A DNA stretch of 21,493 nt, from positions 1 to 21,493 of the IMG/VR virus record IMGVR_UViG_3300006920_000305; one strand, given 5' to 3'. A program made the position numbers and the translations under genes. The stretch is from a virus. Below the pieces are notes generated by a model. The model worked only from the letters and a program-made list of their open reading frames with translations. It searched no databases and had not been told where the DNA came from. Below, piece by piece: positions 1 to 21,493 of the stretch (within the stretch, counting starts at the first letter, position 1; each line of letters opens with the position of its first letter).

Positions 1-383
1 GAAATGGAGTTCCTAATGCGGAATATGGGGACGGTGGCTCGTTTCCAGAAGACGGGAATGAACATGCTTATGTGGAGCAGTTCGCTGGGGAGACGCCATA
101 TGACGGTAGCATGGATGGACTTGAAGACATTCAGGTCGAACAAGTCAACATGGCGTCTCCCCAACAACCTAGACGCATCACCGCCAATCCACAGGTATTC
201 GGGGGTGTGCCACAAGGTTTCCCTCCCCAACAACCCACACCCCCACAAGGGGGTGGGTTTCCACCTAATTTGATGGCGGCAATCCTGAGGAAGTTATCCT
301 CTTTGGAGAACAGCAATATTAAACTGGCAAGCAACATTGAGAAACTAGAGTTGGTCATTAAAAATCTTGACAAAAAGATGTGA
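1..383 (+). CDS. Partial Pro/Gly/Gln-rich protein with C-terminal coiled coil (5' end outside window)
   Basis: The reading frame is open from the left edge (first full codon at position 3) to a TGA at 381-383, so the true start lies upstream; the GTG at 72 is internal and not a convincing start. The visible 126 residues begin with an acidic Gly/Asn-rich stretch. A low-complexity middle follows, with repeated PQQP, PQG and GGGFPP elements. The last ~35 residues have a heptad-like pattern (LRKLSSLENSNIKLASNIEK) typical of a short coiled coil. The product therefore looks like a flexible linker protein with a C-terminal oligomerisation helix. I recognise no family. The clamp gene starts 16 nt downstream on the same strand, so the two are probably co-transcribed. 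Confidence 0.65.
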   Translation, partial: NGVPNAEYGDGGSFPEDGNEHAYVEQFAGETPYDGSMDGLEDIQVEQVNMASPQQPRRITANPQVFGGVPQGFPPQQPTPPQGGGFPPNLMAAILRKLSSLENSNIKLASNIEKLELVIKNLDKKM

Positions 384-399
384 CCGGTTAAAATAGACC

Positions 400-5771: not shown

Positions 5772-5777
5772 ACAAAT

Positions 5778-5785
5778 TATTTAGA
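5778..5785 (-). promoter_or_regulatory. Late-type promoter box TCTAAATA for the hub gene
   Basis: On the - strand TCTAAATA lies exactly 6 nt before the hub ATG (5771). It matches the T4 late-promoter octamer TATAAATA at 7 of 8 positions. No Shine-Dalgarno lies between box and start, so transcription would begin at about the AUG. Confidence 0.5.
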
Positions 5786-5806
5786 TATGCGACATAAAGT
5801 ATCAAC

Positions 5807-6790
5807 CTAAATTAGATCCGACTTAGCACCACCGACTTTGGTGTTCTGGGTTTTCCTGCCCATCATATCAACACTAGTGCTCTCACCACCGACCGAAATA
5901 ATCCGACTAACGTTTGCCGCACTATACTCATGACACATGGGGTAGATGTTATTAACCATCTTAGCCAAGTCCCCATATTGCTGGAAAATCATATTCAGGT
6001 AAACTTTACGGTTATCCAATATATCCAAGAATCCAAAAACATCCTGAGCCAGATTATAAATGTGAGCTAGCGGTTCATCCATTTTATGAAATATTTTACC
6101 ATAGGTGCATTTAGGTAGGACACGAGAACCCACCCGTTGGAATAATCTAACGTTGTTGTGGAAGTTTTCGGCATACTCTGGGAGTAACCTAACCCACGAC
6201 CCCTTCCCCAAAACGTTACTGAGTCCGGTTTCATCCAACACGCTACCTATGACATTGTCGATCATGTTTACGCTATTATCAGGGACAATGATGTTGGAGT
6301 ATACTACCCCCAGTGCTTCCGACATTTTCGTGAATAGGGGCATTTCGTTCAAACGGTCGGTGATATTATTCCTGACTGAATCAGGTAAAAGTATCCGAAC
6401 ATTATCCAAATACCCCCTAAGCAAGGTGGCAGACAAATCCTGAAAAGTAATATCGTCAATATCCCCCTCCAGATCCTTAATATCACTAATGATTCTCTGT
6501 GTGCCGATTATAGATTGTTCTATCTCAAGAATACTGTTGGTGAAAACGGGACTATCCCCAAACAAGTTTTTAGTGAAGCTCACAAGCTCCTCTGAAGCAC
6601 CTCTGTAAGGTCCGTGTAGTTCCTTCACGGTCTGTAGAGCTTCATCCACACCACCGACATTAGAGTTGATCCTACGAACCTTATCGATCAATTGGTTAGT
6701 CCTCAGGTTGTCCCTCGAAGGTAACAGGGATTCTAAATACTCCCTACCGACGATTTCGGCACCAGCTATAGGGTTGCATATATTGGACAT
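5807..6790 (-). CDS. Unknown, probably virion-associated protein upstream of the hub
   Basis: A 327-residue protein starting MSNICNPIAGAEIVG. I chose the ATG at 6790 because the frame's longer version would run back through the divergent gene and because a perfect ATAATTA box lies 5 nt before it. The sequence is mostly helical, with repeated amphipathic segments (IEQSIIGTQRIISDIKDLEGDI; LAHIYNLAQDVFGFLDILDN). A Gly/Thr-rich tail ends GGAKSDLI. There is no transmembrane segment and no catalytic motif I recognise. It lies 35 nt upstream of the hub gene on the same strand and has a late-type promoter, so a baseplate, tail or internal virion role is likely. The stop is TAG. Confidence 0.82.
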   Translation of the reverse strand: MSNICNPIAGAEIVGREYLESLLPSRDNLRTNQLIDKVRRINSNVGGVDEALQTVKELHGPYRGASEELVSFTKNLFGDSPVFTNSILEIEQSIIGTQRIISDIKDLEGDIDDITFQDLSATLLRGYLDNVRILLPDSVRNNITDRLNEMPLFTKMSEALGVVYSNIIVPDNSVNMIDNVIGSVLDETGLSNVLGKGSWVRLLPEYAENFHNNVRLFQRVGSRVLPKCTYGKIFHKMDEPLAHIYNLAQDVFGFLDILDNRKVYLNMIFQQYGDLAKMVNNIYPMCHEYSAANVSRIISVGGESTSVDMMGRKTQNTKVGGAKSDLI

Positions 6791-6794
6791 AATG

Positions 6795-6801
6795 ATAATT
6801 A
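6795..6801 (+). promoter_or_regulatory. Late-type promoter box ATAATTA for the spanin-like pair
   Basis: ATAATTA followed by 5 nt and ATG at 6807. The box and its - strand counterpart overlap in one 8-bp palindrome, and the two divergent start codons are only 16 nt apart, each at the same distance from its box. Confidence 0.6.
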
Positions 6802-6802
6802 T
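6796..6802 (-). promoter_or_regulatory. Late-type promoter box ATAATTA for the 5807-6790 gene
   Basis: Read on the - strand, ATAATTA is followed by 5 nt and the ATG at 6790. It shares the palindrome ATAATTAT (6795-6802) with the promoter box of the divergent + strand gene. Confidence 0.6.
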
Positions 6803-6806
6803 AGTT

Positions 6807-7070
6807 ATGTCGGGAGTTGGAATAGTTGCATTGATTTCAAATATAGCTAAGTATTTGGCGGCACGGGAGACCAACTTTAATGTCCGAACACTACATGACC
6901 TTTATGAAGACCAAGAAAAAATTACTTACAAAATCCTTGACCTTGAAGGTAATCCTAATGTTAATCCCGACCCTTCTCATATCATGCGGCTCAGGAAGCG
7001 TCTGGCAAACACCGAACGACTTATCGAACTTCAGGAGTCCAAAGCGTTTTCAGGTGAAAGCGGGAACTAA
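6807..7070 (+). CDS. Putative inner-membrane spanin (i-spanin-like), overlapping the lipoprotein gene
   Basis: The 87-residue product has an N-terminal hydrophobic stretch (MSGVGIVALISNIAKYLAA) that could be a membrane anchor. It is followed by charged, coiled-coil-prone helices (LHDLYEDQEKITYKILDLEG; MRLRKRLANTERLIELQES). The next gene is nested in the +1 frame over its second half and encodes a lipoprotein. Small anchored protein plus embedded lipoprotein is the classical Rz/Rz1 layout of the outer-membrane disruption step of lysis. An alternative ATG at 6792 would add MIIIV and a longer anchor, but the promoter box at 6795-6801 and its spacing favour 6807. Weak points are the short anchor and the lack of recognisable homology. 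Confidence 0.55.
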   Translation: MSGVGIVALISNIAKYLAARETNFNVRTLHDLYEDQEKITYKILDLEGNPNVNPDPSHIMRLRKRLANTERLIELQESKAFSGESGN

Positions 7071-7170
7071 AGTTGAATTCTCTGGAAAACAATACGTACT
7101 ACCTGAGAATCTCCATGTGATAACACTTGAGGAACACAAGGCTGCAATCGCTCGAAGTCTAATCAACTAA
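6904..7170 (+). CDS. Putative outer-membrane lipoprotein (o-spanin-like)
   Basis: An 88-residue protein with a textbook lipoprotein signal: basic start MKTKKK, hydrophobic core LKVILMLIPTLL, and lipobox LISC with lipidated Cys at residue 28. The mature part is ~61 residues, contains QVKAGTKVEFSGKQYVLP and ends in a helix. It overlaps the upstream membrane-protein gene by 167 nt in the +1 frame. Frame-open ATGs at 6880 and 6895 would add eight or three residues. The ATG at 6904 is preferred because the basic n-region then starts the signal peptide. Paired with its neighbour it should span the periplasm and fuse the membranes at lysis. The lipoprotein call is firmer than the spanin role. Confidence 0.65.
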   Translation: MKTKKKLLTKSLTLKVILMLIPTLLISCGSGSVWQTPNDLSNFRSPKRFQVKAGTKVEFSGKQYVLPENLHVITLEEHKAAIARSLIN

Positions 7171-7179
7171 GAAACACCA

Positions 7180-7356
7180 CTACAGATCATCGTCCCAATC
7201 AGGATCTACTGCGGTATCTGTTACTGTTGGTGTTTGTAAGTGGAGTTGTTGAAGTATTAGGATGGGGATGTCCACTTGCTCATGGGGCAACTTTCCCAGA
7301 ATTGCTAGAATATTCCTAAGGTGCCCCTCTGAGATAATGAAATTACGGTCGCTCAT
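7180..7356 (-). CDS. Small unknown acidic protein
   Basis: A 58-residue protein, MSDRNFIISEGHLRNILAIL at the start and a Asp-rich end (DPDWDDDL). It has an amphipathic helix with Leu/Ile repeats and no Cys or membrane segment. I use the ATG at 7356; an in-frame TTG at 7383 would add nine residues. It converges on the lipoprotein gene, leaving only 9 nt between stops, and no terminator is visible there. Support is moderate: it fills an otherwise empty interval of about 260 nt and has sensible composition, but it matches nothing I recognise. Confidence 0.5.
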   Translation of the reverse strand: MSDRNFIISEGHLRNILAILGKLPHEQVDIPILILQQLHLQTPTVTDTAVDPDWDDDL

Positions 7357-7398
7357 TAAACCATCATACCCTACATCACACAAACTTCAAGTTTTCTC

Positions 7399-7426
7399 TT
7401 GTTAAAAAGAATATTCGGGGTATCAT
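7399..7426 (+). promoter_or_regulatory. Sigma70-like promoter for the 5' nuclease operon
   Basis: TTGTTA (7399-7404), a 16-nt spacer and TATCAT (7421-7426), followed by GGGGGC and the ATG at 7433. Normal spacing would start transcription at or within about a base of the AUG. Both boxes are imperfect, and no late-type box is present. Confidence 0.45.
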
Positions 7427-7432
7427 GGGGGC

Positions 7433-8332
7433 ATGAGGAACATTTTAATAGATGGTAATAATATGCTATACCGTGCGGTCGGGAATACCGAGAGGCGGCA
7501 TAAGGAAAATCCACGTTACAAACGGAAGTATTCCGAAGACGGGATGGACATCACTGCAATTCATAGCTTTTTCTCAACGCTATATTACGACACACAAAGG
7601 TTCCAGCAAGAAGACACCAAATTTTACATAGTGTGGGATCGGAAAGTTGATCCAACTGCAACGAACTGGAGGAATGACATCAACCCACTTTATAAGGCGA
7701 ATCGAGGGACCGTGGATACGAGCGAATCCAAGAAAATGGTATTTGATCTCTGTCGTTTAGTTAAACAGGTGTGTGACGCCTACGGGTTCCATACAGTATT
7801 CCCACTGACATCCGAATGTGATGACATCATCAACCACTTGAAGAACACCCTAGAAGGCGGCTGTATAATTGTTTCCGCCGATGAAGACTTTTATCAATGT
7901 GTGAGCGCAAATTGCTCCGTGTATAGTCCTATGAAGAAGATATTGGTAACTGAAAGAAACTTTGAGGATTATAACACTGTGTCATTGGAGAATTTTGTGA
8001 AATGGAAATCCATAAAAGGCGACACTAGCGATAACATCAAGGGTCTTTATCGTTATGGTGATAAAAAATCCAAAAAATTGGTTGAGAACTGGGAGGTTGG
8101 TTCCAAAAAGTTAAGCGAGGAACAACTGGAGATCATAAAGGAGACTATGAGCATTATCGACTTGGACCACAAACCCCTCGCGGATAGAGAAATATTACTG
8201 GTATCTAAACAAATTAAACCCAAAACCCGTCTTGGTGATCTGAGCTTGGGCAAAGTGTTGGATAATTTTGGGGTTCATCACACCGTCAGGACACTGTGGG
8301 CTAATTTCTTCCTGAACCAAGATTTAGCCTAA
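7433..8332 (+). CDS. 5'-3' exonuclease / flap endonuclease (T4 RNase H / FEN family)
   Basis: A 299-residue enzyme expected to remove RNA primers and flaps during lagging-strand synthesis; T4 RNase H is of similar length. Metal-binding acidic motifs are in the expected order: LIDGNN with Asp7, FYIVWDRK with Asp69, ECDDII (128-133), SADEDFYQ with Asp150 and Asp152, and GDTSDNIKG with Asp197 and Asp200 at the start of the helix-hairpin-helix segment. YKANR (88-92) matches the basic arch region. The ATG at 7433 is the first in frame and follows sigma70-like boxes rather than a late-type box, suiting an early gene. It leads a five-gene operon; the next gene starts 4 nt after its stop. Confidence 0.93.
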   Translation: MRNILIDGNNMLYRAVGNTERRHKENPRYKRKYSEDGMDITAIHSFFSTLYYDTQRFQQEDTKFYIVWDRKVDPTATNWRNDINPLYKANRGTVDTSESKKMVFDLCRLVKQVCDAYGFHTVFPLTSECDDIINHLKNTLEGGCIIVSADEDFYQCVSANCSVYSPMKKILVTERNFEDYNTVSLENFVKWKSIKGDTSDNIKGLYRYGDKKSKKLVENWEVGSKKLSEEQLEIIKETMSIIDLDHKPLADREILLVSKQIKPKTRLGDLSLGKVLDNFGVHHTVRTLWANFFLNQDLA

Positions 8333-8336
8333 TTTT

Positions 8337-8729
8337 ATGAATAAATACACAATACTAGCTGGCAAAATATTTCTAGCCATAGGTGCCATGTTGGTGTGGT
8401 TGGTACCCTCCATACCCGCACAGGTGGCCATACTCGGCGCATACGTTGCATTGTTCATATTCCTCCAATACCGAACCCTCCAATCCAAACGGACCCTTAT
8501 AGGGGAGAGTGTGAAGCAACGGGAGGTTATAGTGGAGCATATCGGCGGTAGAATATGGGACATTCCCGTTAAATTCACATGTATGCATTGTAAATATGTG
8601 AAAGTCATGGACTTCTCGCTAGAAACCAGAGGCTTCACCTGCGAACGGTGCCAGAACCCCAATAAGTTGATATTACAGTTCACGGTAATACCCGAATCTA
8701 AAAATTCCAGCGAAATGACCAATGAATGA
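8337..8729 (+). CDS. Membrane protein with C-terminal zinc-ribbon-like Cys pairs
   Basis: A 130-residue protein with two hydrophobic segments, about residues 7-24 (LAGKIFLAIGAMLVWLV) and 28-44 (AQVAILGAYVALFIFLQ), forming a membrane hairpin. A ~85-residue soluble domain follows. It carries CMHC (82-85) and CERC (102-105), two CxxC knuckles with 16 residues between them as in zinc ribbons. The family is unknown to me. It starts 4 nt after the nuclease stop and overlaps the next gene by 8 nt, so it is translated within the same operon. A membrane-tethered zinc ribbon could anchor a nucleoprotein or host-interaction function, but that is speculation. Confidence 0.8.
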   Translation: MNKYTILAGKIFLAIGAMLVWLVPSIPAQVAILGAYVALFIFLQYRTLQSKRTLIGESVKQREVIVEHIGGRIWDIPVKFTCMHCKYVKVMDFSLETRGFTCERCQNPNKLILQFTVIPESKNSSEMTNE

Positions 8730-9141
8730 ACCAAAAGAAAACCCATTAACCGGAACCCTAGGACTCCCTATAGGCATGCAACATAAACCGACCGTCATCC
8801 AAAACCCCCAGAATGTGGGTTCTATGAGTGATACCAAACCCCCTGTCATCTTAGAAAACCCGATTGATATAAAGAGGGATATACTAAATTTCGTAGATAG
8901 ATTACCTATAGATGATAAAAATAAGGTAAGGGGTTATATCTTCCAGAGGTGCGGAGAACCATATCCCACGTCTATGGCCACCATGGCTGACATATTGTTG
9001 GATATGTCCAAAGACTTAGCTAGAGACCGGCATGACCCCGAACTCAATAAGAAAGACAACAAGGACGAGCTATTGATGATGTTAGCAGTATTCGCATCCC
9101 TTTACCCCTTCCACTTGAAGGAAGGGATTGATGGCAAATAG
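8722..9141 (+). CDS. Unknown protein of the nuclease operon
   Basis: A 139-residue protein overlapping the upstream gene by 8 nt and the downstream gene by 11 nt, so translation is probably coupled. The first ~45 residues are Pro/Asn-rich and probably disordered (NPLTGTLGLPIGMQHKP). The rest is helical and charged (PIDIKRDILNFVDRLP; ATMADILLDMSKDLARDRHD; LLMMLAVFASLYPFHLKEG). No catalytic motif, Cys pair or signal peptide is seen. The stop is TAG. I do not recognise a family. Confidence 0.78.
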   Translation: MNEPKENPLTGTLGLPIGMQHKPTVIQNPQNVGSMSDTKPPVILENPIDIKRDILNFVDRLPIDDKNKVRGYIFQRCGEPYPTSMATMADILLDMSKDLARDRHDPELNKKDNKDELLMMLAVFASLYPFHLKEGIDGK

Positions 9142-9610
9142 GAACCTAAATTGCTCAGATTGTGGGGATACCCGATGGGTAGCCCAGACCAAGTTCCGAG
9201 AATTAGTCGGTGAGTTTGGGACTCCTAAGAAGGCTAAGAACAACTTCCAGTGCAATAAATGCAGGGCACTTAAGAAGAAAGACCCGTTCATGTTCCAACT
9301 TAAATACGGAAAACATGTTAAGAATATACAGGCGGAACTAAAATCCGCACTGAAGCCATTCTATAAAACGGAATGTCTGGAAACTCTAAAAAAAGAGTTC
9401 TCTGCAATTTATACAAAAAATAATATTGACGAATCGAAGGTGGTGTATCACTATACATCAGTAGGTTCGCAGCGAATCGAGGGCCTCACCATTAGAGAGT
9501 TTCCGTTCGTTGGGGATTTCTACATACACCTTTTTAGACAAAGGAAATTTGACAAATCGTCCACCAAACATTATGACATCAACAAAAAAAATAAAAGACC
9601 AAACTTATGA
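9131..9610 (+). CDS. Unknown protein with N-terminal zinc-finger-like Cys pairs
   Basis: A 159-residue, basic protein. The ATG at 9131 is preferred over the TTG at 9128 because GAAGGAAGGG lies just upstream, one of the few Shine-Dalgarno-like sequences in this window. CSDC (8-11) and CNKC (41-44) are two CxxC pairs about 30 residues apart, as in a treble-clef or zinc-ribbon fold. The sequence after them is Lys-rich, consistent with nucleic-acid binding. The C-terminal half is mixed (VVYHYTSVGSQRIEGLTIRE) and ends in a basic tail. It overlaps the previous gene by 11 nt and the next by 38 nt. A DNA- or RNA-binding role is an inference only. Confidence 0.78.
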   Translation: MANRNLNCSDCGDTRWVAQTKFRELVGEFGTPKKAKNNFQCNKCRALKKKDPFMFQLKYGKHVKNIQAELKSALKPFYKTECLETLKKEFSAIYTKNNIDESKVVYHYTSVGSQRIEGLTIREFPFVGDFYIHLFRQRKFDKSSTKHYDINKKNKRPNL

Positions 9611-10070
9611 CTTAAAATTCATCATCGAAACTGAGAAAGAGAAATGGAAGACTATCCATTCGGAAGTAGCCACAACAGTAACGTGGGACGAGGAGGTGAA
9701 TATGTTTCTATGCAAATCCGAGATGGGGACTTATTATAATGAGTGGCATAAATTCTTCCAAAACCACGTTATTATTAAGAATAATGGGTTTTGGAGAACA
9801 GGAACGTTAACCAAAAATGAGATAAAACAGAACGAACAGGCGAGTTGGCTCTGTTTTATCAATGGTTACAATATTTGTAGAGACATGTTCGGGTCATACG
9901 ATTCCACCAAGCATAACGTCGGAAATAATCTACTATCATACATCCATGATCGGATGGATGATGCCATATACACCCTAAAGGGTGGTTTACTACCAGATTG
10001 GCTAGCAGACTATGTCCATGATCAAATGGAAGTTGCGAAATTGGAAGAGACTAAGCCGTTCAGGACCTAG
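9573..10070 (+). CDS. Unknown protein, last gene of the nuclease operon
   Basis: A 165-residue protein starting MTSTKKIKDQTYDLKF. The ATG at 9573 is preferred over a TTG at 9510, which would overlap the upstream gene by 101 nt. The sequence is rich in aromatic residues (MGTYYNEWHKFFQNHVI; NNGFWRTGTL; ASWLCFINGYNICRDMFGSY). The C-terminus is helical and acidic (LLSYIHDRMDDAIYTLKGG). No known motif is seen. It ends in TAG, and the CTAG at 10067-10070 is shared with the stop of the convergent tail-tube gene. Confidence 0.75.
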   Translation: MTSTKKIKDQTYDLKFIIETEKEKWKTIHSEVATTVTWDEEVNMFLCKSEMGTYYNEWHKFFQNHVIIKNNGFWRTGTLTKNEIKQNEQASWLCFINGYNICRDMFGSYDSTKHNVGNNLLSYIHDRMDDAIYTLKGGLLPDWLADYVHDQMEVAKLEETKPFRT

Positions 10071-10732
10071 CAATCAACTTCGGAAGATTCATCTTTGGCT
10101 GCAATGATATCCTCATAACCTTTGAAGACATTGGCGACATTGGTTTGGAGGGAATCCGAATCATTACCGGCAAATTGATCCAAATCAAGTTCGTCTAATG
10201 ACAAGGGTTGCCAGTAATTGTAGGTGAATCCAACATCAACGTTAACCACCTCATCCCCAGAATAATCATAATCAATGGAACCGATACTTGTTGGATATAC
10301 ACCGACAAGTTCAACTGCTCTGACGATTTTGTTTGCCTTATTGACGACCGCATATTGGATATTGGAATCTCTACCGACACAGAACTGGGCGGTTCCGTCT
10401 AGAGGATTACCCATTGCAAACTTCCAAGCTTGAATGGGATTGATTGCCATAAAGTCCCCAGCAACACGGAAACCGATAGTAGTTTCATTACCGCCAAATT
10501 GAAGTTGACCGGGAACTTTCAGAGTAACTCCTTGAATAGGAACGTCTTTAGAATCACGGGTAAGTCCCGGTAGTGACGCCGTTGTCATGAAGTGAACACC
10601 CCTCAAAATATCAGAATTAAATGGCTCCGGTCCAATCTTAAGAGGTCGAAGAAAATTCTGTTGCTGAACGCCATGCTTGAGAAGAGCTTCATTTCCTGTC
10701 TTGAGATTAAAAATTTTGGACAATTCGTTCAT
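10067..10732 (-). CDS. Tail tube protein (T4 gp19-like)
   Basis: A 221-residue protein expected to stack as hexameric rings inside the contractile sheath and form the DNA channel. It has the gp19-type pattern: an N-terminal helix with FNLKTGNEALLKHG, the strand-rich ASLPGLTRDSKDVPIQGVTL, then PGQLQFGGNETTIGFRVAGD, and the conserved W in IQAWKFAMGN. A later strand (VDVGFTYNYWQPLS) and an acidic C-terminal tail follow. I use the ATG at 10732 because CTAATTA lies 5 nt before it, the same geometry as other late genes here. An in-frame ATG at 10747 with AAGGG six nt upstream is a real alternative. It is transcribed divergently from the sheath. Confidence 0.82.
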   Translation of the reverse strand: MNELSKIFNLKTGNEALLKHGVQQQNFLRPLKIGPEPFNSDILRGVHFMTTASLPGLTRDSKDVPIQGVTLKVPGQLQFGGNETTIGFRVAGDFMAINPIQAWKFAMGNPLDGTAQFCVGRDSNIQYAVVNKANKIVRAVELVGVYPTSIGSIDYDYSGDEVVNVDVGFTYNYWQPLSLDELDLDQFAGNDSDSLQTNVANVFKGYEDIIAAKDESSEVDC

Positions 10733-10737
10733 GTTTT

Positions 10738-10744
10738 TAATTAG
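10738..10744 (-). promoter_or_regulatory. Late-type promoter box CTAATTA for the tail tube
   Basis: CTAATTA on the - strand, one mismatch from ATAATTA, followed by exactly 5 nt and the ATG at 10732. Confidence 0.42.
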
Positions 10745-10750
10745 CATACG

Positions 10751-10771
10751 CAACCCTTTAAAAAGGGGTTG
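10751..10771. repeat. Hairpin-forming inverted repeat between tube and sheath genes
   Basis: CAACCC and GGGTTG arms with a T/A-rich inner stem (one G-T pair) and an AAA loop. It sits midway between the divergent late-type boxes of the tube and sheath genes. No T-run follows, so it looks more like a protein-binding site or insulating hairpin than a terminator. Confidence 0.5.
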
Positions 10772-10779
10772 ATTATTGC

Positions 10780-10786
10780 ATAATTA
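10780..10786 (+). promoter_or_regulatory. Late-type promoter box ATAATTA for the tail sheath
   Basis: ATAATTA followed by 5 nt (AATGC) and the sheath ATG at 10792. There is no room for a Shine-Dalgarno between the predicted transcription start and the AUG. Confidence 0.6.
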
Positions 10787-10791
10787 AATGC

Positions 10792-13338: not shown

Positions 13339-13351
13339 ACTAAACTTAACC

Positions 13352-13393
13352 AAAATCCCCAAGGAGTATAAATGGCTTCTTGGGGATTTTTTT
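13352..13393 (+). terminator. Rho-independent terminator after the sheath gene
   Basis: The arms AAATCCCCAAG and CTTGGGGATTT form a long stem, extended inward by GAG/CTT with one G-T pair. The loop is TATAAATGG and TTTTTTT closes the structure. It separates the sheath from thyA. Confidence 0.9.
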
Positions 13394-13416
13394 GTTTAAA
13401 AATTCAGTCTTCGGTG

Positions 13417-13422
13417 TAATAT
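13417..13422 (+). promoter_or_regulatory. Possible -10 box of the thyA promoter
   Basis: TAATAT lies 8 nt before the thyA ATG, just after the sheath terminator. The best -35 candidates (GTTTAA or TTGTTT, 17-19 nt upstream) are poor. A promoter is expected here because the upstream transcript is terminated. Confidence 0.35.
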
Positions 13423-13430
13423 GGTTATAG

Positions 13431-14351: not shown

Positions 14352-14353
14352 TC

Positions 14354-14539
14354 ATGAACATTAAGAAAATAGAAGACGTGGATTTCTTGGAAGTCACAAA
14401 AGTTAAAGACACGGAAGAAGGTGTAATCGTATCCGATAAGTCCGGTAGTTTTTTGGTAGAGGGGGCTATCGTAGAGGTCCTAAATTATCAGAGAGAGGCG
14501 ATAGAACATTGGGAGGTGTCTAATTTACTCGACACTTGA
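14354..14539 (+). CDS. Small unknown protein downstream of thyA
   Basis: A 61-residue acidic protein starting MNIKKIEDVDFLEV. It is predicted to be beta-rich in the middle (EGVIVSDKSGSFLVEGAIVE), which could form a small barrel, and ends in a helix (NYQREAIEHWEVSNLL). Its ATG lies 2 nt after the thyA stop, so it is probably co-translated. The stop is TGA, followed by a hairpin terminator 8 nt later. No family is recognised. Confidence 0.7.
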   Translation: MNIKKIEDVDFLEVTKVKDTEEGVIVSDKSGSFLVEGAIVEVLNYQREAIEHWEVSNLLDT

Positions 14540-14547
14540 ATTAAAAT

Positions 14548-14582
14548 AAAAGACTCATAGTTAATCCTATGAGTCTTTTTTA
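14548..14582 (+). terminator. Hairpin terminator after the thyA cassette, possibly bidirectional
   Basis: The arms AAAAGACTCATAG and CTATGAGTCTTTT pair perfectly around the loop TTAATC, followed by more T. The A-run on the 5' side means it could also act on the - strand. The start codon of the next gene (14569) lies within the 3' arm. Confidence 0.88.
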
Positions 14583-15327
14583 TTTGGATAGCTACACCGT
14601 CGATGACCTTAAAGAATACATCAAATGTCGTGATGATGTATCGTATTTTTCGGAGAATTACTTGGGTGTCAAATTAACGGCAAATCAGGAATCCGCTATC
14701 GACCTAATGGAATCCTCCAAAAGTTATGCAATCGAAACCCCCCGACGAGTTGGTAAGACTACGTTAGTTCAAGTTTGGGCGACATGGAAGCTCACCTTTC
14801 ACATGGGGGTGTTCAACTTATCTATTGGCGTGTATAACAGTATGGTCGCACGTTCATGGCAGGACACCTTTAACACATTCCTGAAAAACGTCCCTAAAAA
14901 GTTTTCCGATAACTCACTTGTTACACAATACGAATCGGGAATTATTCGTTTTAAAAATGGGAATAGTATCAGAATAGCTTCTATGAAATCCCCCAGTGTA
15001 TGGAGGGAGCGTTCCACCACACACTTCATCGGAGAAGAAGCAGGGCACCCCGATAGTGGGCGTGTATATGAGCAAAATTGCCAAGACGTTATGCCCACAA
15101 TCGACATGGCGGGTGGGTCGTTTGGGTTGATATCCACAAAACACTATGACTCCAATAATCTATTTTCGGGTATAATTCGAAACTCTCGTTTGGGGTCACG
15201 CACCATCGATGTGCTGAAATTCGCCCCATTTTCAGGGAATATTAATGAATATACCGACAAGGGTGTCACTGAGGGCGTCAATTTGACGGGTTCCATTGGA
15301 TCGTTTTTGAGACAAGAGGGCATCTAA
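14569..15327 (+). CDS. Terminase-large-subunit-like ATPase domain without nuclease (paralogue or remnant)
   Basis: A 252-residue protein laid out like the N-terminal motor domain of a large terminase: an N-terminal helical segment, Walker A in ETPRRVGKTT (Lys63), Arg-rich SPSVWRERS, a Walker B-like stretch THFIGEEAGH (151-160) and motif III GLISTKH. The Walker B Asp is replaced: the acidic pair is Glu156-Glu157, not Asp-Glu as in the neighbouring terminase. The frame ends soon after motif III, so the RNase H-like nuclease domain is missing. The only ATG (14569) lies inside a terminator hairpin, and no late-type box precedes it. It could be a regulatory paralogue of the motor, a decaying duplicate, or a different ATPase of the same fold. 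Confidence 0.65.
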   Translation: MSLFYLDSYTVDDLKEYIKCRDDVSYFSENYLGVKLTANQESAIDLMESSKSYAIETPRRVGKTTLVQVWATWKLTFHMGVFNLSIGVYNSMVARSWQDTFNTFLKNVPKKFSDNSLVTQYESGIIRFKNGNSIRIASMKSPSVWRERSTTHFIGEEAGHPDSGRVYEQNCQDVMPTIDMAGGSFGLISTKHYDSNNLFSGIIRNSRLGSRTIDVLKFAPFSGNINEYTDKGVTEGVNLTGSIGSFLRQEGI

Positions 15328-15350
15328 ACGTATTCAAAAAATACGTTTAG
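15324..15350. repeat. Perfect 11-bp inverted repeat upstream of the terminase
   Basis: CTAAACGTATT and AATACGTTTAG flank a 5-nt loop (CAAAA). The left arm contains the stop of the ATPase paralogue. The right arm directly abuts the ATAATTA box at 15351. No T-run follows, so it resembles an operator or a processing/stabilising hairpin more than a terminator. Confidence 0.7.
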
Positions 15351-15357
15351 ATAATTA
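15351..15357 (+). promoter_or_regulatory. Late-type promoter box ATAATTA for the terminase
   Basis: ATAATTA, then 5 nt (CCTCT) and the terminase ATG at 15363. It directly follows the inverted repeat at 15324-15350. Confidence 0.6.
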
Positions 15358-15362
15358 CCTCT

Positions 15363-17216
15363 ATGGGACGTAAAGAGGAATTGTGGGGAGATAGTCAAAT
15401 TCCGGATGCAGAGATTGTAGTTGAAAACTTCTATAAGGGTAACGAGAATATTCTAGGGGAGGGTTCTGTCCTAAAATACCTACCGGAACATGCCATTGAG
15501 ATCCATAAATGTAAGGAGTCCATCGAATACTTCCTAGAGAACTACTATAAGATCCTCATTGAGGGCATAGGGAAGGGTCTGATGCCTCTTTGGCCTATTC
15601 AGAGGGAGTCCTTCAAATTCCTTCAAGACAACAATAGGGTCGTTCTGAACGCATCCAGACGGACTGGTAAAACTGTGTCGGTTTGTGGGTTCCTACTGTG
15701 GAAATTGTTATTTTCTGATGGTATGCAACGAATTGGTATGCTGGGTAACAATTTCGACTTAGCAAAAAGTAACCTCATTAAAGTTAAAGAGGCTTTCGAG
15801 GACCTACCATTCTTTCTCAAGCCATTTGTGGTGAAATTTAACATGGAGACCATTATCCTTGATAATGATTGCTCCGTCAAAATCACAGCAACGCAACCTG
15901 CGGCATTTCGGGGTTCTGACTTAACGGGACTTATTATTGACGAGGCGGCATTTGTCAACATTGGTAAATCGGAAGGGCTGGATGCTGACATACTACAATC
16001 CGTTCTACCCACACTAGATTCCTCCGGTGTCAATTCATTCTGTATTCTTATTTCGACACCGTATGGCAAGAATAACGAGTTCGCCAGACGATACTTCAAA
16101 GCAAAAGACACTCCTGAAGAGACCAAGTTTCGTCATTTCGAGATACTATGGAGCCACCACCCCGACAGAGACGATGCATGGTATCAGGATAAAATATTGG
16201 AACTGGGTAGCTTGGAATCATTCTATCAGGAATATGGCGGCAGCTTTGATATGGGTGCCAAACAGATTCGATTGTTTAAGGACGATGAACGTAGTGACCT
16301 TGAGGAGGGTGTGATGGAACCGATATACTCTGAGGATAAAGAACTAAAACAGACCGACCACACCGACCCCAAAGAGGACCGATCTTTTAAAGTCTGGGAA
16401 TTGCCAGATCCAAATGCCACCTATATTGCCGGTGTTGATACCGCCGAAGGTGTTGATGGTTGTTCATCGGTTGTCCAGATATTCGACATCACGGATTTAT
16501 TCGACATTCGACAGGTTGCCGAATACGCCAACAATCTAGTCATCGTGGAAGATTTTGCAGGCATTTGTCGGAATATATTCAACCGATATAATCAATGTTA
16601 TGCCTGTGTTGAGAGCAATGGTCGAGGTGGAGGTGAATTACTGGCATTGCTCCGCCATACCTTCAAATACCCCAAGTTGGTCCGATATCACCACAACAAA
16701 GCAACCATGGCAAAGATGATCGAAAATGGACAAGTGGGTGTTGATAGCCACAACAATTCCAAAATGTATTCCATCCGAAACTTCAGGTATTTCTTGAACA
16801 AACGGAAAGCTATCACCATTAGGTCAGAGGACCTCATGGCGGAAATGGATACGTTTATCAGAACCGCCACCAAAGGTAACAACTACAAATGGGGTAAGGA
16901 TAAGGGGCAGGTTTACGACGATAGGGTTGATGCAATGTGTTGGGCGTTATTTGCTCTCCACCAAGATCTAGTGGAGGACTTATTTATTCTTGATAGCCCA
17001 AAATTTGACGATGCACATAAAGCACTCCGTATTGTTAACGAGAGGATTAGAGGGGCAATTGACCCTAGAATTGAACACAAAACTACACCAGTAAACCAAG
17101 ATACCTATTCACCGAAAATGTATTTTAGTGGAAATGGTCAATCACTCAATAGTAATATAACAACCCCCCCGAAGCATGGTGGTGATCAGGGGGATGTAAG
17201 CTGGTTGAATTTTTAA
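15363..17216 (+). CDS. terL: Terminase large subunit (DNA-packaging ATPase and nuclease, T4 gp17-like)
   Basis: A 617-residue packaging motor, close in length to T4 gp17 (610). ATPase domain: adenine-motif region PLWPIQRESF, Walker A ASRRTGKT (97-104, Lys103), Walker B LIIDEAAF (190-197, Asp193-Glu194) and coupling motif ILISTPYG (228-235). Nuclease domain: the first metal Asp in AGVDTAEGVDG (Asp359), an IVEDFAG strand, CVESNGRGGGELL with Glu417, and YDDRVDAMCW with Asp519/Asp520/Asp523 near the C-terminus. The domain is complete and should be active. The ~75-residue tail after that is Pro/Asn/Gly-rich. It starts 5 nt after a late-type box. No small-subunit gene is recognisable in the window. 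No intron or intein is seen. Confidence 0.95.
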   Translation: MGRKEELWGDSQIPDAEIVVENFYKGNENILGEGSVLKYLPEHAIEIHKCKESIEYFLENYYKILIEGIGKGLMPLWPIQRESFKFLQDNNRVVLNASRRTGKTVSVCGFLLWKLLFSDGMQRIGMLGNNFDLAKSNLIKVKEAFEDLPFFLKPFVVKFNMETIILDNDCSVKITATQPAAFRGSDLTGLIIDEAAFVNIGKSEGLDADILQSVLPTLDSSGVNSFCILISTPYGKNNEFARRYFKAKDTPEETKFRHFEILWSHHPDRDDAWYQDKILELGSLESFYQEYGGSFDMGAKQIRLFKDDERSDLEEGVMEPIYSEDKELKQTDHTDPKEDRSFKVWELPDPNATYIAGVDTAEGVDGCSSVVQIFDITDLFDIRQVAEYANNLVIVEDFAGICRNIFNRYNQCYACVESNGRGGGELLALLRHTFKYPKLVRYHHNKATMAKMIENGQVGVDSHNNSKMYSIRNFRYFLNKRKAITIRSEDLMAEMDTFIRTATKGNNYKWGKDKGQVYDDRVDAMCWALFALHQDLVEDLFILDSPKFDDAHKALRIVNERIRGAIDPRIEHKTTPVNQDTYSPKMYFSGNGQSLNSNITTPPKHGGDQGDVSWLNF

Positions 17217-17230
17217 TTTTATAAAACAAC

Positions 17231-17258
17231 TTGAAAAGACAAAAATGGTTGTTATGAT
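17231..17258 (+). promoter_or_regulatory. Sigma70-like promoter for the small ORF at 17268
   Basis: TTGAAA (17231-17236), a 16-nt spacer and TATGAT (17253-17258), both close to consensus. The ATG follows 9 nt after the -10 box, so the predicted leader is only a few nucleotides. Confidence 0.6.
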
Positions 17259-17267
17259 GGTGTAGTA

Positions 17268-17498
17268 ATGACTACAAATACAGTAACAACCAATTCGGAG
17301 ACTAACCTAGGAACACTCTCCCCTAAAAAAGCAGCTAAATTTCTCTTTGAGAACTGCACCCGCAACGACCTACGTCTGTTCGCCAGCAACATGAGCATCC
17401 CCCGTGGGCGTGATAAAGGCGAACTCTCAACTAACCTTGGACGATCATCTCAACGGTCCCAAATTCAGGTTAAGACCCAAATGACGATTTCCATGTAA
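17268..17498 (+). CDS. Small basic unknown protein in its own transcription unit
   Basis: A 76-residue protein: a Thr/Asn-rich start (MTTNTVTTNSETN), a helix with PKKAAKFLFENCTRNDLRLF, then a basic Arg/Lys/Ser-rich tail (MSIPRGRDKGEL; LGRSSQRSQIQVK). The fold of residues 18-52 (helix-turn-helix-like, basic) would suit nucleic-acid binding, but no family is recognised. It stands alone between a sigma70-like promoter and a strong terminator in the middle of late virion genes, the arrangement expected of an early or host-takeover gene. The product is small, so the coding call is not certain. Confidence 0.6.
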   Translation: MTTNTVTTNSETNLGTLSPKKAAKFLFENCTRNDLRLFASNMSIPRGRDKGELSTNLGRSSQRSQIQVKTQMTISM

Positions 17499-17522
17499 TT
17501 TTATTACCCGTTGTATTTTCAT

Positions 17523-17555
17523 AAATCCCGTGGGTTAACCCCACGGGATTTTTTT
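17523..17555 (+). terminator. Rho-independent terminator after the small basic ORF
   Basis: The arms AATCCCGTGGG and CCCACGGGATT surround the loop TTAAC, followed by TTTTT. It ends 3 nt before the late-type box of the next gene and so insulates the late operon. Confidence 0.9.
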
Positions 17556-17558
17556 GTG

Positions 17559-17565
17559 ATAATTA
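17559..17565 (+). promoter_or_regulatory. Late-type promoter box ATAATTA for the LysM baseplate gene
   Basis: ATAATTA, then 5 nt (CCAAC) and the ATG at 17571, directly after a terminator. It presumably drives the operon through about 18896. Confidence 0.6.
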
Positions 17566-17570
17566 CCAAC

Positions 17571-17930
17571 ATGAGGCTCAAGCAAAATGAAATATCTGAA
17601 CTGGATGATCTCCCAAGTAGCAGTATGGCTAACCTCTTCAAGCTGGAGACCGATGGAGACTCTAGATATTTCTACGACTACACTGACGCCATCCACATAG
17701 AGACTGATGGTATGGACCCCAAATTCTATGTAAAATATAACATAAAGAGCGGGGACTCGTTCTACAGTATCGCTAGGGCGTTTTATGACACATATAAGCT
17801 GTGGTGGGTCATCGCAGTTGCAAACGATATCGATGACCCATTCGTGATCTCGGAGATGGTCGGTGAAGAGATATTGGTATTAAAGGCGTATATTGTGTCG
17901 CAAGTTCTTGATGAGGTCGAAAGTGCCTAA
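17571..17930 (+). CDS. LysM-domain baseplate protein (T4 gp53-like)
   Basis: A 119-residue protein; the ATG at 17571 is chosen because of the late-type box 5 nt upstream, and the longer frame from 17511 would run through the terminator. Residues ~55-105 form a LysM-type domain: YNIKSGDSFYSIARAFYDTY, then KLWWVIAVANDIDDPF and a closing EEILVLKAY. The same arrangement (short-lived start, W/Y-rich helix, NDI.DPF) occurs in baseplate wedge protein gp53 of T4-like phages, where it works in wedge assembly rather than in host-wall binding. It is shorter than T4 gp53 (196), mostly at the N-terminus. It heads a late operon. Confidence 0.68.
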   Translation: MRLKQNEISELDDLPSSSMANLFKLETDGDSRYFYDYTDAIHIETDGMDPKFYVKYNIKSGDSFYSIARAFYDTYKLWWVIAVANDIDDPFVISEMVGEEILVLKAYIVSQVLDEVESA

Positions 17931-17943
17931 ATAAAGACATATT

Positions 17944-18447
17944 ATGGATAACTTTAAAGACTACTTTTTCGGAGAAGATGCAACAGATTTAGTTGAAGAG
18001 GCAAGCGAGATTACCCAAGATCCCCTCTTTTCACTTTTTGGTAGAGATTTTGTTAATAAGCGTTTCGATCATTACGATGATATCGGCCTGATCCCACAAC
18101 AGGTCGCTAACCTAAATGGTGACACTAGAGATATTGATACTAAAGAATTGACCGAACATGAGAAGAAGCAACTTAAGATTTATATTTTTAAGAATGTGGA
18201 CAGGGAGGTATTGAACCAAGCAATCCGCCTAGTAGGTGATGAGGATGCGGGGTTACTACATAAGCATTATAGTGACCTTAAGACATTTGATGTTGACCAA
18301 AACTCGGAGAGGATTAACAAAATTTTGAAGAATTTCATGTTCTTCAAAAGGCAGGACATCGCAGGTCTACCCAAAACACTCTCTAAGAAGATTAACCTAG
18401 ATGAGCTTGATCGTCTCACTAAAGGAACAAAAGCAACTAAAGAATAA
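17944..18447 (+). CDS. Unknown protein of the late operon
   Basis: A 167-residue, charged, helical protein, 13 nt downstream of the LysM gene and 5 nt upstream of the next. The acidic N-terminus (FFGEDATDLVEEASEIT) precedes FSLFGRDFVNKRFDHYDDIG and several amphipathic helices; the tail is Lys-rich. The frequent E/D/K and the absence of Cys, membrane segments or signal peptide suggest a soluble assembly or minor virion protein. Its place between baseplate and fibre-like genes supports a structural or assembly role. No family is recognised. Confidence 0.8.
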   Translation: MDNFKDYFFGEDATDLVEEASEITQDPLFSLFGRDFVNKRFDHYDDIGLIPQQVANLNGDTRDIDTKELTEHEKKQLKIYIFKNVDREVLNQAIRLVGDEDAGLLHKHYSDLKTFDVDQNSERINKILKNFMFFKRQDIAGLPKTLSKKINLDELDRLTKGTKATKE

Positions 18448-18452
18448 AACTC

Positions 18453-18896
18453 ATGCACTTGAGAAGTGACGGAACTACCGGTGTGGGTGATGGGTATGTC
18501 CCATGGTTCACTTTTGATGATATCAAGGACCAATTGTATCAGGCGGTTGAAACCGCACCCAAATGCCCCGAATCGGTCAGCGATGCTACGATAGCATCCA
18601 TTGATAGCTTCATGGGACGCATTGCGGGGTCAATATCAGAACCTCAGAGCGAACCCAAAAGCGAAAGTGACACCATGTTAGATATGGTAAATGGGTTTTT
18701 TGGACAAAGGGAAGGTGTGAGAAATATGTCACCGTCTGGCTTAATTGGCAGAGGTGGCTCCATGGGGTATGCCCCATCACCTCAAGGTAATAATTTCAAC
18801 GGTAGAGTGTCAATGGGTCTGAATGAAAACGGCACATTTGATATGATTAGCGGGTATAAGGAGTCTGCGACAGAACCCCAGTTGATTTTGGGTTAG
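18453..18896 (+). CDS. Unknown Gly/Ser-rich protein of the late operon
   Basis: A 147-residue protein starting MHLRSDGTTGVGDGYVPWFT. The first ~65 residues look folded (FDDIKDQLYQAVETAPKCP; SIDSFMGRIAG). The rest is low complexity, with Ser/Glu/Pro repeats (SEPQSEPKSESD) and Gly/Asn/Met-rich stretches (GRGGSMGYAPSPQGNNF). Such flexible tails are common in minor virion or linker proteins. It starts 5 nt after the preceding stop and ends in TAG just before the next late-type box. No family is recognised. Confidence 0.75.
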   Translation: MHLRSDGTTGVGDGYVPWFTFDDIKDQLYQAVETAPKCPESVSDATIASIDSFMGRIAGSISEPQSEPKSESDTMLDMVNGFFGQREGVRNMSPSGLIGRGGSMGYAPSPQGNNFNGRVSMGLNENGTFDMISGYKESATEPQLILG

Positions 18897-18901
18897 ATGG
18901 A

Positions 18902-18908
18902 ATAATTA
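18902..18908 (+). promoter_or_regulatory. Late-type promoter box ATAATTA for the propeller-like gene
   Basis: ATAATTA followed by 6 nt and a GTG start at 18915. The spacing is one nt longer than at the other exact copies. Confidence 0.5.
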
Positions 18909-18914
18909 AAAGCA

Positions 18915-20636
18915 GTGAGCTTATCATCAACATTTCCCGAAAACATTCCAGTTGACTCTTTGGAAGAATATGATTCGGGCATTTTCCGGACTATAAGCAC
19001 ACCGTTCAGCTTCCCCCACGACCAAGGCGAATTCAACCTAGCGTATGATTTCTTTTTTGCGAAGAACGTAAACCCAATATTCTCTAAATTTTACGATAAC
19101 CTAGAATACCTAGAGGGTTATTCGAAATTGTATAACAACATCCTCCCAATAGACTCTACCCCTTGTGTGGAATATGGTGATGATGTCATCGGAGTAGACA
19201 TCAACTCGTCTTACGAAGTTATCCACACCAAAAAAGAGATACGTGTCTATAAATTAGGGGTCTTACTTCAGACATTAAAATTAACTCAATTCGGTGAGTT
19301 TTTCGACATAAGGGGTGTTGCGCTAAATGGTAATGAGTTATACATACTTGATGGTAATTTTATCATTAAACTCACACTCACCGATACCACATTCAACTTT
19401 GTATCATTTTTTGGGGGAACTGGAAACAATACCGAAGAGTATCTATTCACCAAAGCTTCTAAGATAATAGTTGACGGTGGTCTGTTGTATATAATGGACA
19501 TTGGCGCAGGTGTCCTGAAGGCATATAACTCGAATTTATCATTTTTGGAATTCATCGACATCACAGGCGCGATAAGTGTTGATGTGGTGGGTGGGGTGGT
19601 GTACGAAATAACTCCGGAATTCATAAGATATAACGAGGTGTCTATAGCGCACGGAATCACTAACCCACTACTTATTACGGTCGATTCCGTTCAATTGGGA
19701 TTTGTTTGGGTGGCCAACTCAAACGAGATTAAAAAGTTCGCAACGAATGGGTTGTTCATTGCCAGCAGGGTTGAGACAACCATGACGGATTTGGTTCGGT
19801 ATGGAACCGGCCTATTCCGAGTGTCCTCAGGTGTAATGAACCATGATCTCGAATACCAGTTTTCTCAGAGTATACTAGACGGTTCTGGGTTCGCTACACC
19901 ACTATCCGCCATAAACATCCTACCCGATGAGTTGGCTACCGATTATGTAGTGAATGACTCCTTTGTAAAAATCTACAATAACTTGGATGATTTCTCACAG
20001 AGAGTCAATGGTCGCTTTGTATCCACATTGGACGGTGAATCCAATTTACTCGATATTTCCATTGAACCCGTGTCTTCGATTGGGTTGACGTTCGACCACC
20101 AAATATTACATAGACATGACGAGGTAGTATCCTGCCATCCATGGGAAAGGACATTCAGTAAATTATACAGTTTGCTGGAAGACACCAGAGACCAACTGTT
20201 TGGTATTGAAGTTTTTGACACCTCAGTTAGTGCTACAGCGGCTCTTTCTGCAAATTCCACGGATTACCTAGATTCTATCAACTGGAGCTTAGGTGCGCAA
20301 TCCTGCTGCGGTGTCACACCCCAACTATTCAACCCCCAACTGACACCATTATCACTCAAGGAGCTTTCGGTGCCTGCATTAAGTTGTATCCCTCTTTGTA
20401 TTTGTGATGATGCGTTATACTTTGGTATGTTTGGTGCAGCGTATAATGGTGGGTCTTGTAGTATATATTCCGAAGAATCTCTATTTTGTGAAGACGCCTT
20501 TTATGATGATTGGTCTGGTGCGGAGTATAATGATTGGTCTTGTAGTCTATTCGCACTTTGTGAAGAGGCTCTTTATGATGATGAGTCTGGGGCTGAGTAT
20601 ATTGATGGATCTTGTGCCGCATATGATGATCAATAA
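18915..20636 (+). CDS. Putative virion (fibre/baseplate) protein with propeller-like strands and C-terminal Cys modules
   Basis: A 573-residue protein beginning at GTG (18915); no ATG fits nearby and a late-type box sits just upstream. Residues ~90-330 contain repeated four-strand units with NHL/propeller-like signatures (ELYILDGNFIIKLTL; LLYIMDIGAGVLKAYNSN; FVWVANSNEIKKFATNGL). Residues 330-480 have no recognisable domain. The C-terminus changes character: a Cys-rich linker (SCCG, CIPLCIC) and then three 19-residue modules bounded by Cys (497-515, 525-543, 549-567), acidic and Tyr-rich. It lies between baseplate and tail-fibre genes, so an exposed tail or adhesion protein is likely. A propeller on a phage tail would suit receptor or glycan binding; this is inference. 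Confidence 0.72.
   Translation: MSLSSTFPENIPVDSLEEYDSGIFRTISTPFSFPHDQGEFNLAYDFFFAKNVNPIFSKFYDNLEYLEGYSKLYNNILPIDSTPCVEYGDDVIGVDINSSYEVIHTKKEIRVYKLGVLLQTLKLTQFGEFFDIRGVALNGNELYILDGNFIIKLTLTDTTFNFVSFFGGTGNNTEEYLFTKASKIIVDGGLLYIMDIGAGVLKAYNSNLSFLEFIDITGAISVDVVGGVVYEITPEFIRYNEVSIAHGITNPLLITVDSVQLGFVWVANSNEIKKFATNGLFIASRVETTMTDLVRYGTGLFRVSSGVMNHDLEYQFSQSILDGSGFATPLSAINILPDELATDYVVNDSFVKIYNNLDDFSQRVNGRFVSTLDGESNLLDISIEPVSSIGLTFDHQILHRHDEVVSCHPWERTFSKLYSLLEDTRDQLFGIEVFDTSVSATAALSANSTDYLDSINWSLGAQSCCGVTPQLFNPQLTPLSLKELSVPALSCIPLCICDDALYFGMFGAAYNGGSCSIYSEESLFCEDAFYDDWSGAEYNDWSCSLFALCEEALYDDESGAEYIDGSCAAYDDQ
20403..20615 (+). repeat. Three 19-codon Cys-bounded repeats in the propeller-like gene
   Basis: The units lie at 20403-20459, 20487-20543 and 20559-20615, each encoding C-[DE]-[DE]-A-[LF]-Y-x3-[FS]-G-A-x-Y-x3-S-C. 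The spacers are 9 and 5 codons. Codons have diverged while the spacing and Cys/Gly/Tyr positions are kept, implying selection on protein structure. Confidence 0.8.
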
Positions 20637-20662
20637 TTGATTTTTTAAAGTAGCAGCTTTAC

Positions 20663-20670
20663 TATAAATA
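20663..20670 (+). promoter_or_regulatory. T4-type late promoter TATAAATA for the tail fibre gene
   Basis: An exact copy of the T4 late-promoter octamer TATAAATA, 8 nt before the ATG at 20679 and in the short gap after the preceding gene. Confidence 0.6.
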
Positions 20671-20678
20671 ATAACAAC

Positions 20679-21493
20679 ATGGGATACAAAGGTAGAGAAA
20701 TGTCACTAGCTGCGACTAAATTTGTTTTAGGTGATGTTAATACTGAACCCGAAAAGGAAGCATTAAGGTATCAGATAGGAGCTTTAGGTTCTATTGATGA
20801 CACTAATACCACATATACTCATAGTCTTTCTGGAACTGATCTAATTCTATCTGGTTCAGATGCTACAACTGATGTTGTAGATTTGAGTGGTTTAGGGGGC
20901 GGCGGGAATCCATTTGATCAAGATCTTAATACAACAAACTTCCCGACATTTGGCACGCTCAACCTAACAGGCGAAACCTTAGCTATGAATGGTATCAACA
21001 CACTCCGCATACCTGATCAAGGCTCACTTGAATATCATGGGTCTTTGTATGTCGGAGGTGGAGGCACGTCTGCGTCTAATTCTTCAGGATTTCAGGGGCA
21101 GTATAATACTGGAGTTGGGATTGATTCTTTGAAATCCGTTACCACAGGATGGTCCAATTTAGGGTTGGGGACGTTTTCCTTAGAAAATCTTATAACTGGG
21201 ATTGAAAATAACGCTTGTGGATATGCCGCACTTCGTAATATCACTACAGCGGACTTCAACACTGCTTCTGGATCACACGCACTTCGTCATATCACTACAA
21301 CGGACGGCAATACTGCTCTCGGATACTATGCTGGTAGATATATTGGCGGTGGAGCGGTTAGTAATACGATTTCATCCAACTCGCTATATTTAGGTAGGGA
21401 AACTAAAGCTTTAGTTGATGGTGGTAATAATGAGATCGTCATTGGATATGACGTAACTGGTAATGGTAGTAATACTATCACTCTAGGAAATGC
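20679..21493 (+). CDS. Tail fibre protein, N-terminal part (3' end outside window)
   Basis: The frame opens at ATG 20679 (MGYKGREMSLAATKFVLGDV) and stays open for 271 codons to the right edge. An in-frame ATG at 20700 is an alternative start. Composition is typical of trimeric beta-structured fibres: Gly, Ser, Thr and Asn-rich, few Lys or Cys. An N-terminal segment includes LSGTDLILSGSDATTDVVDL. The strand-turn repeats follow (INTLRIPDQGSLEYHGSLYV). A 17-residue repeat with ALR-x-ITT-x-D-x-NTA comes next, then TALGYYAGRYI, a motif familiar from environmental phage fibres. The N-terminus normally docks on the baseplate and the missing C-terminus would bind the receptor. Confidence 0.85.
   Translation, partial: MGYKGREMSLAATKFVLGDVNTEPEKEALRYQIGALGSIDDTNTTYTHSLSGTDLILSGSDATTDVVDLSGLGGGGNPFDQDLNTTNFPTFGTLNLTGETLAMNGINTLRIPDQGSLEYHGSLYVGGGGTSASNSSGFQGQYNTGVGIDSLKSVTTGWSNLGLGTFSLENLITGIENNACGYAALRNITTADFNTASGSHALRHITTTDGNTALGYYAGRYIGGGAVSNTISSNSLYLGRETKALVDGGNNEIVIGYDVTGNGSNTITLGN
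21228..21305 (+). repeat. Two 27-bp direct repeats in the tail fibre gene
   Basis: Copies at 21228-21254 and 21279-21305, 51 bp apart and differing at two positions, encode the fibre repeat ALR[NH]ITT[AT]D. Near identity at DNA level suggests recent duplication or a possible site of repeat-number change. Confidence 0.8.

Follow-up and report, generated by a model that had tools for sequence, protein, structure and literature searches.

Probable T4-type late promoter boxes 5-6 nt before start codons in a distant T4-like phage and its relatives: predicted leaderless late mRNAs

Boxes before start codons in the window and its relatives

The question raised by this locus is why copies of an A/T-rich heptamer, ATAATTA, stand at an almost fixed distance of 5 or 6 nt before start codons, and what such a placement would mean for the mRNAs. 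The stretch of DNA analysed (the window, 21,493 bases) is an entire virus record, a fragment classed as 'linear'. Its gene set is that of a contractile-tail phage, T4-type but distant. Profile matches identify tail tube (phrog_45), sheath (phrog_23), terminase large subunit (TerL, phrog_2) and 5' exonuclease (phrog_107); a hub protein, a LysM/baseplate protein and thymidylate synthase are encoded as well. Megablast of the window against named phages gave no match, and the closest named TerLs are about 26% identical to that of the window. Contig L006 is 100% identical to window positions 6522-21493 and adds 5.6 kb at the right end (window plus extension is termed EXT). A syntenic relative of 139,595 bases (L015/G001) has a sheath with 61% identity, and the window, G001 and G007 are referred to as the window clade. 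Searches for further relatives with sheath, gp55 and head-closure queries returned the same phage pair or copies only; a two-row TerL alignment used as query yielded additional ones.

An earlier note on this DNA had reported six exact copies of ATAATTA, each 5 or 6 nt before a start codon. All six are found at the positions given there (Table 1). Counting ORFs of at least 60 aa, the heptamer ends 5 nt before the starts at 6790 (minus strand), 6807 (plus strand), 10792, 15363 and 17571, and 6 nt before the GTG at 18915. The copies at 6795 (plus) and 6802 (minus) form a single palindrome, ATAATTAT. In number the copies do not exceed chance (6 observed, 5.96 +/- 2.61 in shuffles) and motif frequency by itself was dropped as evidence for that reason, whereas the placement is far from chance: 8 of the 14 TAATTA sites in the window lie at gap 5-6 from an ORF start (p=1.4e-11; background rate for A/T-only hexamers 0.016). 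The note had also listed close variants of similar geometry. This holds for the tube (CTAATTA, N5) and the hub (TCTAAATA, N6), and the fibre box TATAAATA with its gap of 8 has a looser geometry. The gap of 5 before the tube gene presupposes a protein beginning MNELSK. This start at 10732 and the one at 117743 in the G001 orthologue both read MNE[LI]S with a box 5-6 nt ahead.

Several of the boxes are conserved. The sheath box is present before the G001 orthologue, and the three phages of the window clade share the box before the tube, LysM and propeller-like genes, the last of which keeps the box together with the GTG in G001 and G007. The hub box is common to the window and G007, and the G001 fibre orthologue has TAATTA at gap 6. 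No box was found upstream of the terL orthologue of G001. The TAATTA ahead of the unassigned gene at 1642, which was absent from the earlier list, may be due to chance; the G001 orthologue (g150) has no box at gap 5-6 in its listed upstream region.

Table 1. Late boxes, sigma70-type promoters, hairpins and the clamp gene in the window, and two-sided sites in the window clade
Feature	Position	Strand	Remarks
Sigma70-type promoter TTGACA-16-TAAAAT	367..394	+	5 nt before clamp ATG 400; predicted leaderless early/middle mRNA
Sliding clamp (gp45-like)	400..1140	+	no family match of its own; 50% identical to syntenic G001 g147
TAATTA	1630..1635	+	6 nt before ATG 1642, gene near clamp
Late box TCTAAATA	5778..5785	-	N6 before hub ATG 5771; G007 hub orthologue boxed, G001 hub without box
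Palindromic late box ATAATTAT	6795..6802	both	5 nt to each of two divergent starts, ATG 6790 (minus) and ATG 6807 (plus)
Sigma70-type promoter TTGTTA-16-TATCAT	7399..7426	+	6 nt before 5' nuclease ATG 7433
Late box CTAATTA	10738..10744	-	5 nt before tail-tube ATG 10732 (MNELSK...)
Late box ATAATTA	10780..10786	+	5 nt before sheath ATG 10792
Strong hairpin	15322..15352	+	-14.2 kcal/mol, z -7.2; ends 2 nt into terL late box
Late box ATAATTA	15351..15357	+	5 nt before terminase large subunit ATG 15363
Sigma70-type promoter TTGAAA-16-TATGAT	17231..17258	+	9 nt before ATG 17268
Intrinsic-terminator-like hairpin and T tract	17523..17551	+	directly upstream of LysM late box; 17525-17570 folded
Late box ATAATTA	17559..17565	+	5 nt before LysM/baseplate gene ATG 17571
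Late box ATAATTA	18902..18908	+	6 nt before GTG 18915, propeller-like protein
Exact T4 late octamer TATAAATA	20663..20670	+	8 nt before fibre ATG 20679
Two-sided TAATTA sites	window 6796; G001 55619, 125811; G007 16192, 22985	both

Position specificity was assessed without bias by scoring all 64 A/T-only hexamers at gap 5-6 before ORF starts. TAATTA is the most extreme hexamer in the window, in G001 (34/148, p=1.6e-32) and in G007 (21/66, p=1.2e-18). In the more distant G014 it is TAAATA, the core of T4's own late promoters, that is most extreme (26/179, p=1.8e-22), as it is in G011 (12/127, p=1.9e-8). It is important to note that G001, G007 and G014 played no part in the choice of the motif. 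Neither TAATTA nor TAAATA stands out at gap 5-6 in T4 or in the T4-like cyanophage S-CAM9. Annotation-free counts of TAAWTA-Nk-ATG in G001 gave 38 sites at k=5 and 17 at k=6, with roughly 1-10 at other spacings, and 33 of the 38 sites at k=5 open ORFs of at least 60 aa. TAATTA is a palindrome, identical on both strands, and five sites in the three genomes of the window clade have ORF starts 5-6 nt off on each side; T4 and S-CAM9 have no such two-sided site.

Boxed genes and the late sigma

Regarding the genes served, the boxes do follow gene class. In G001 they precede 10 of 15 virion/lysis genes and none of 20 replication, nucleotide and early genes (Fisher 1.6e-5), where the classes were assigned mainly by homology (for two of the 15 virion genes, synteny with the window was used) and the scripted count was 9/15, g87 being added by hand since its boxed start at 55613 lies outside the search window. 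The EXT sheath box likewise falls outside the search window of the class test run genome by genome, and none of these single-genome tests (EXT, G007, G014, G012, G011, G009) is significant alone. The earlier statement that only virion, packaging and lysis genes are marked was too strong: homing endonucleases and a glucosyltransferase are boxed as well, and several virion genes (G001 hub, terL and head closure) are not. Unclassified co-directional genes do not carry the box; they begin a median of 5 nt behind their upstream neighbour, as operon-internal genes do.

Clamp, 5' nuclease and thyA genes of the window were said to lack the late box, and they do; sigma70-type -10 hexamers stand 5-8 nt before their ATG instead. 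Sigma70-type -10 gaps in G001 (L025-L031) are bimodal with peaks 6 and 9 nt before ATG, so that early mRNAs should start at the ATG or 3 nt ahead of it; one definition of this promoter class partly used the gap (4-10), and the independent evidence is the count permitting any gap within 60 nt. Several of the gap-9 promoters in G001 have GTT or GTA right before the ATG.

Spanin candidates had also been named among the boxed genes. ORFs 6807-7070 and 6880-7170 overlap in different frames, and the latter contains LLISCGSG, which resembles a lipobox, and has a 43% identical relative in G001 (g153). Judged by these features they are a possible inner/outer spanin pair, an assignment that is our own reading.

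A T4-type late promoter would require a gp55-like sigma. In G001 the ORF at 87314-88138 matches phrog_234 (2.8e-11) and was found again with our own HMM built from seven annotated gp55s (2.6e-13). It lies close to gp47, an arrangement seen in other T4-like phages. The same HMM detects gp55 homologues in G014 (5e-16) and G009 (7e-24). The 21.5-kb window fragment itself contains no gp55, so that the identity of the sigma in the window phage is inferred from its relatives. The G001 protein (L029:7314-8159 = G001 87314-88159) carries an insertion of about 130 aa between two conserved blocks; the insertion is shorter in G014, at the same place, and missing in G009. The clamp gene that had been noted in the window is indeed gp45-like, judging by its identity and synteny with g147 of G001, which itself matches phrog_223 weakly (9e-4). 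A clamp loader is evident in G001 (phrog_168, 7.5e-66). As for the accessory factors, a phrog_254 search of the fragmentary sequences detected no gp33. It is a poorly conserved, highly variable protein, and since the sequences are also fragmentary, the missing match says little. Late promoters of T4 type, recognised by a gp55-like sigma, are well supported by the gp55 homologues in the relatives together with the position-specific motif and the split between gene classes. The diverged consensus that had been proposed is real as a shift from TAAATA to TAATTA, confined to the window clade.

Geometry of the late boxes and its alternatives

What the earlier note overlooked is that a spacing of 5 nt would imply leaderless mRNA, and this geometry is the unusual part. 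In T4 late promoters the first bases of the box are numbered -13/-12 (PMC2988020); the eighth base is therefore at -6, and a gap of 5 puts +1 on the A of the ATG. Judged from the sequence, the late mRNAs should open exactly with the first base of the gene and lack both a leader and a ribosome-binding site. Processed with the same pipeline, T4 has 42 boxes 13-35 nt from the ATG and none at 5-6, and 53% of its starts carry Shine-Dalgarno (SD) motifs. In S-CAM9 30 boxes lie at 13-38 nt and none at 5-6. G001 has 8 boxes at a T4-like distance and 38 at gap 5-6, and its SD motifs are at background (6% vs 9% in the control). A pyrimidine occupies position -1 at 36 of 38 late gap-5 starts vs 87 of 135 unclassified starts (Fisher 1e-4); a pyrimidine before the A of the ATG is as expected of an initiation site. 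At the terL and LysM genes of the window there is no room for a leader, because a hairpin or terminator abuts the box. Hairpins also lie upstream of two G001 boxes.

It is highly probable that the boxes are the -10 elements of T4-type late promoters, served by a gp55-like sigma and placed for leaderless late mRNA, and that the sigma70-type promoters follow the same geometry. According to this reading, host RNA polymerase carrying the gp55-like phage sigma would recognise a core TAA[A/T]TA, mostly TAATTA in the window clade, and the phage clamp would probably activate these promoters. Transcription would begin on the A of the start codon at gap 5 and one base earlier at gap 6, and the resulting leaderless late mRNAs would be translated by leaderless initiation. 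The sigma70-type early/middle promoters of the phage would be arranged in the same way. Against it count the gap of 8 before the fibre gene, the failure to detect gp33, the virion genes that are unboxed, the lack of gp55 in the window and the low exact-pattern counts in the L072-L083 lineage. Start codons, moreover, were taken from a simple ORF caller, with some shifted to the in-frame start fitting the box.

The constant distance to the start codon together with the absence of SD motifs is also what would be seen if the box were no promoter and acted as a translation-initiation signal, a non-SD ribosome-binding element. We regard this as very improbable. None of the 20 replication and early genes is boxed although SD motifs are at background genome-wide, and the unclassified co-directional genes following closely behind a neighbour do without the box. 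Moreover, terminator-like hairpins end at the box, the box is the T4 late core with exact TAAATA in sister lineages, and a gp55 homologue is present.

Host sigma70-type -10 elements in leaderless position, acting without a phage late sigma, would account for the geometry that the boxes share with the sigma70-type promoters of the same phages, and 7 of 50 late boxes contain TATAAT. The other 43 do not. The mean best match to TTGACA in the -35 region is 3.36, vs 3.00 for unclassified starts and 2.93 for random sequence, and no late box has a 6/6 match; further, boxes and sigma70-type promoters serve different gene classes and gp55 homologues are present, which leaves this explanation very improbable. 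Chance occurrence of A/T-rich heptamers by the start codons of an A/T-rich phage has next to no probability: the heptamer count does equal the shuffle expectation, but the placement is refuted as chance by the spacing counts, by the hexamer scan (also in the relatives not used for choosing the motif) and by the lack of such a peak in T4 (GC 0.35) or S-CAM9.

The boxes resemble the late promoters of T4 (PMC2988020) in being a single TATA-like element, TATAAATA in T4, with no conserved -35, in occurring on both strands and in their virion-gene bias; a gp55-family sigma and genes for clamp and clamp loader are present in both, and T4 uses gp55, gp33 and gp45. Unlike in T4, where boxes are distant and SD motifs common, the boxes are 5-6 nt from the start, SD motifs are missing and the mRNAs are predicted to be leaderless; the core is the palindromic TAATTA in the window clade instead of TAAATA, and gp33 was not detected. 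S-CAM9 also has TAAATA-type boxes and an SD use below that of T4, but its boxes are 13-38 nt away, so that low SD use alone does not bring the leaderless geometry. In bacterial leaderless genes (Zheng 2011, PMC3160421) a TA-like signal lies some 10 bp ahead of the start codon. Here too a -10 signal stands at about that distance, directly before the start codon, and SD motifs are lacking; in contrast to the bacterial cases these are phage genes with two promoter classes, one of them for a phage late sigma. Leaderless transcripts are often seen in phages according to the paper on AR9 (PMC5312081), which provides a precedent for leaderless phage mRNA. No report of leaderless gp55-type late promoters was found in the literature searched, and the leaderless placement, as read from the sequence geometry, would be the new part. 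If this is true, shifting the box right up to the start codon would be enough to adapt the T4 late-transcription system to a host that translates leaderless mRNA. The boxes would then offer a marker for such phages that needs sequence only, a hint to their hosts and a way to correct start codons, and the sigma would be a natural case of gp55 tolerating a changed box and large insertions.

Distribution among lineages, possible hosts and neighbouring sequences

The TerL alignment survey covered 31 loci, in which single loci are small. The window clade, L093 and the L072-L083 group have mostly gap-5 boxes and SD near control; L082, L084-L089, L092 and L094-L097 have mostly SD above control and no gap-5 peak. 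Box counts over whole contigs are strong in G001, G007 and G014 and weak in the L072-L083 group, where exact-pattern counts barely exceed controls and the ORF-based peaks remain. This suggests that several uncultivated lineages share the leaderless geometry. In the TerL tree, which has long branches, the window clade is supported (100/100) and the union of the leaderless groups is not, so both one and several origins are possible. L091, like S-CAM9, has little SD yet ordinary box distances; SD loss and leaderlessness are thus separable. That the other groups use TAAATA and the window clade TAATTA suggests that the geometry may predate the change of the box.

thyA matches those of three Uhrbacteria (48-49%), which is a weak lead to the host. 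In one of these three genomes (G006, L117-L136; 400-kb stretch) TATAAT-like boxes peak 8-10 nt before the ATG, SD motifs are on 22% of starts, and many genes of this candidate-phylum bacterium are near-leaderless. Hosts like Uhrbacteria are plausible, and further bacterial groups in which leaderless genes abound (PMC3160421) are just as possible. We give roughly even chances to a wider proposal: that in a T4-related branch the starts of transcription and of translation have been merged under every promoter class, sigma70-type and gp55-type boxes alike setting +1 on the start codon or no more than a few bases away, that the palindromic TAATTA fires both ways, and that host ribosomes favour leaderless mRNA, the host possibly being a candidate-phylum bacterium.

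Some features of the neighbouring sequences were also recorded. Directly upstream of full-length terL, window positions 14569-15327 encode a protein of 252 aa that is related to the ATPase half of TerL and 25% identical to G001 TerL; the equivalent place in G001 holds a shorter ORF of 174 aa (123057-123581), 27% identical to TerL. A hairpin of 13 pairs at 14548-14579 spans the start codon of the ORF at 14569, and this start may accordingly be wrong or regulated. In G001 at about 111.5-114.5 kb (L014/L015 3763-6606) an element of about 110-120 bases is repeated in several copies (87-94% identity) scattered among small ORFs, in the region that separates the hub-side genes from the 5' nuclease gene.
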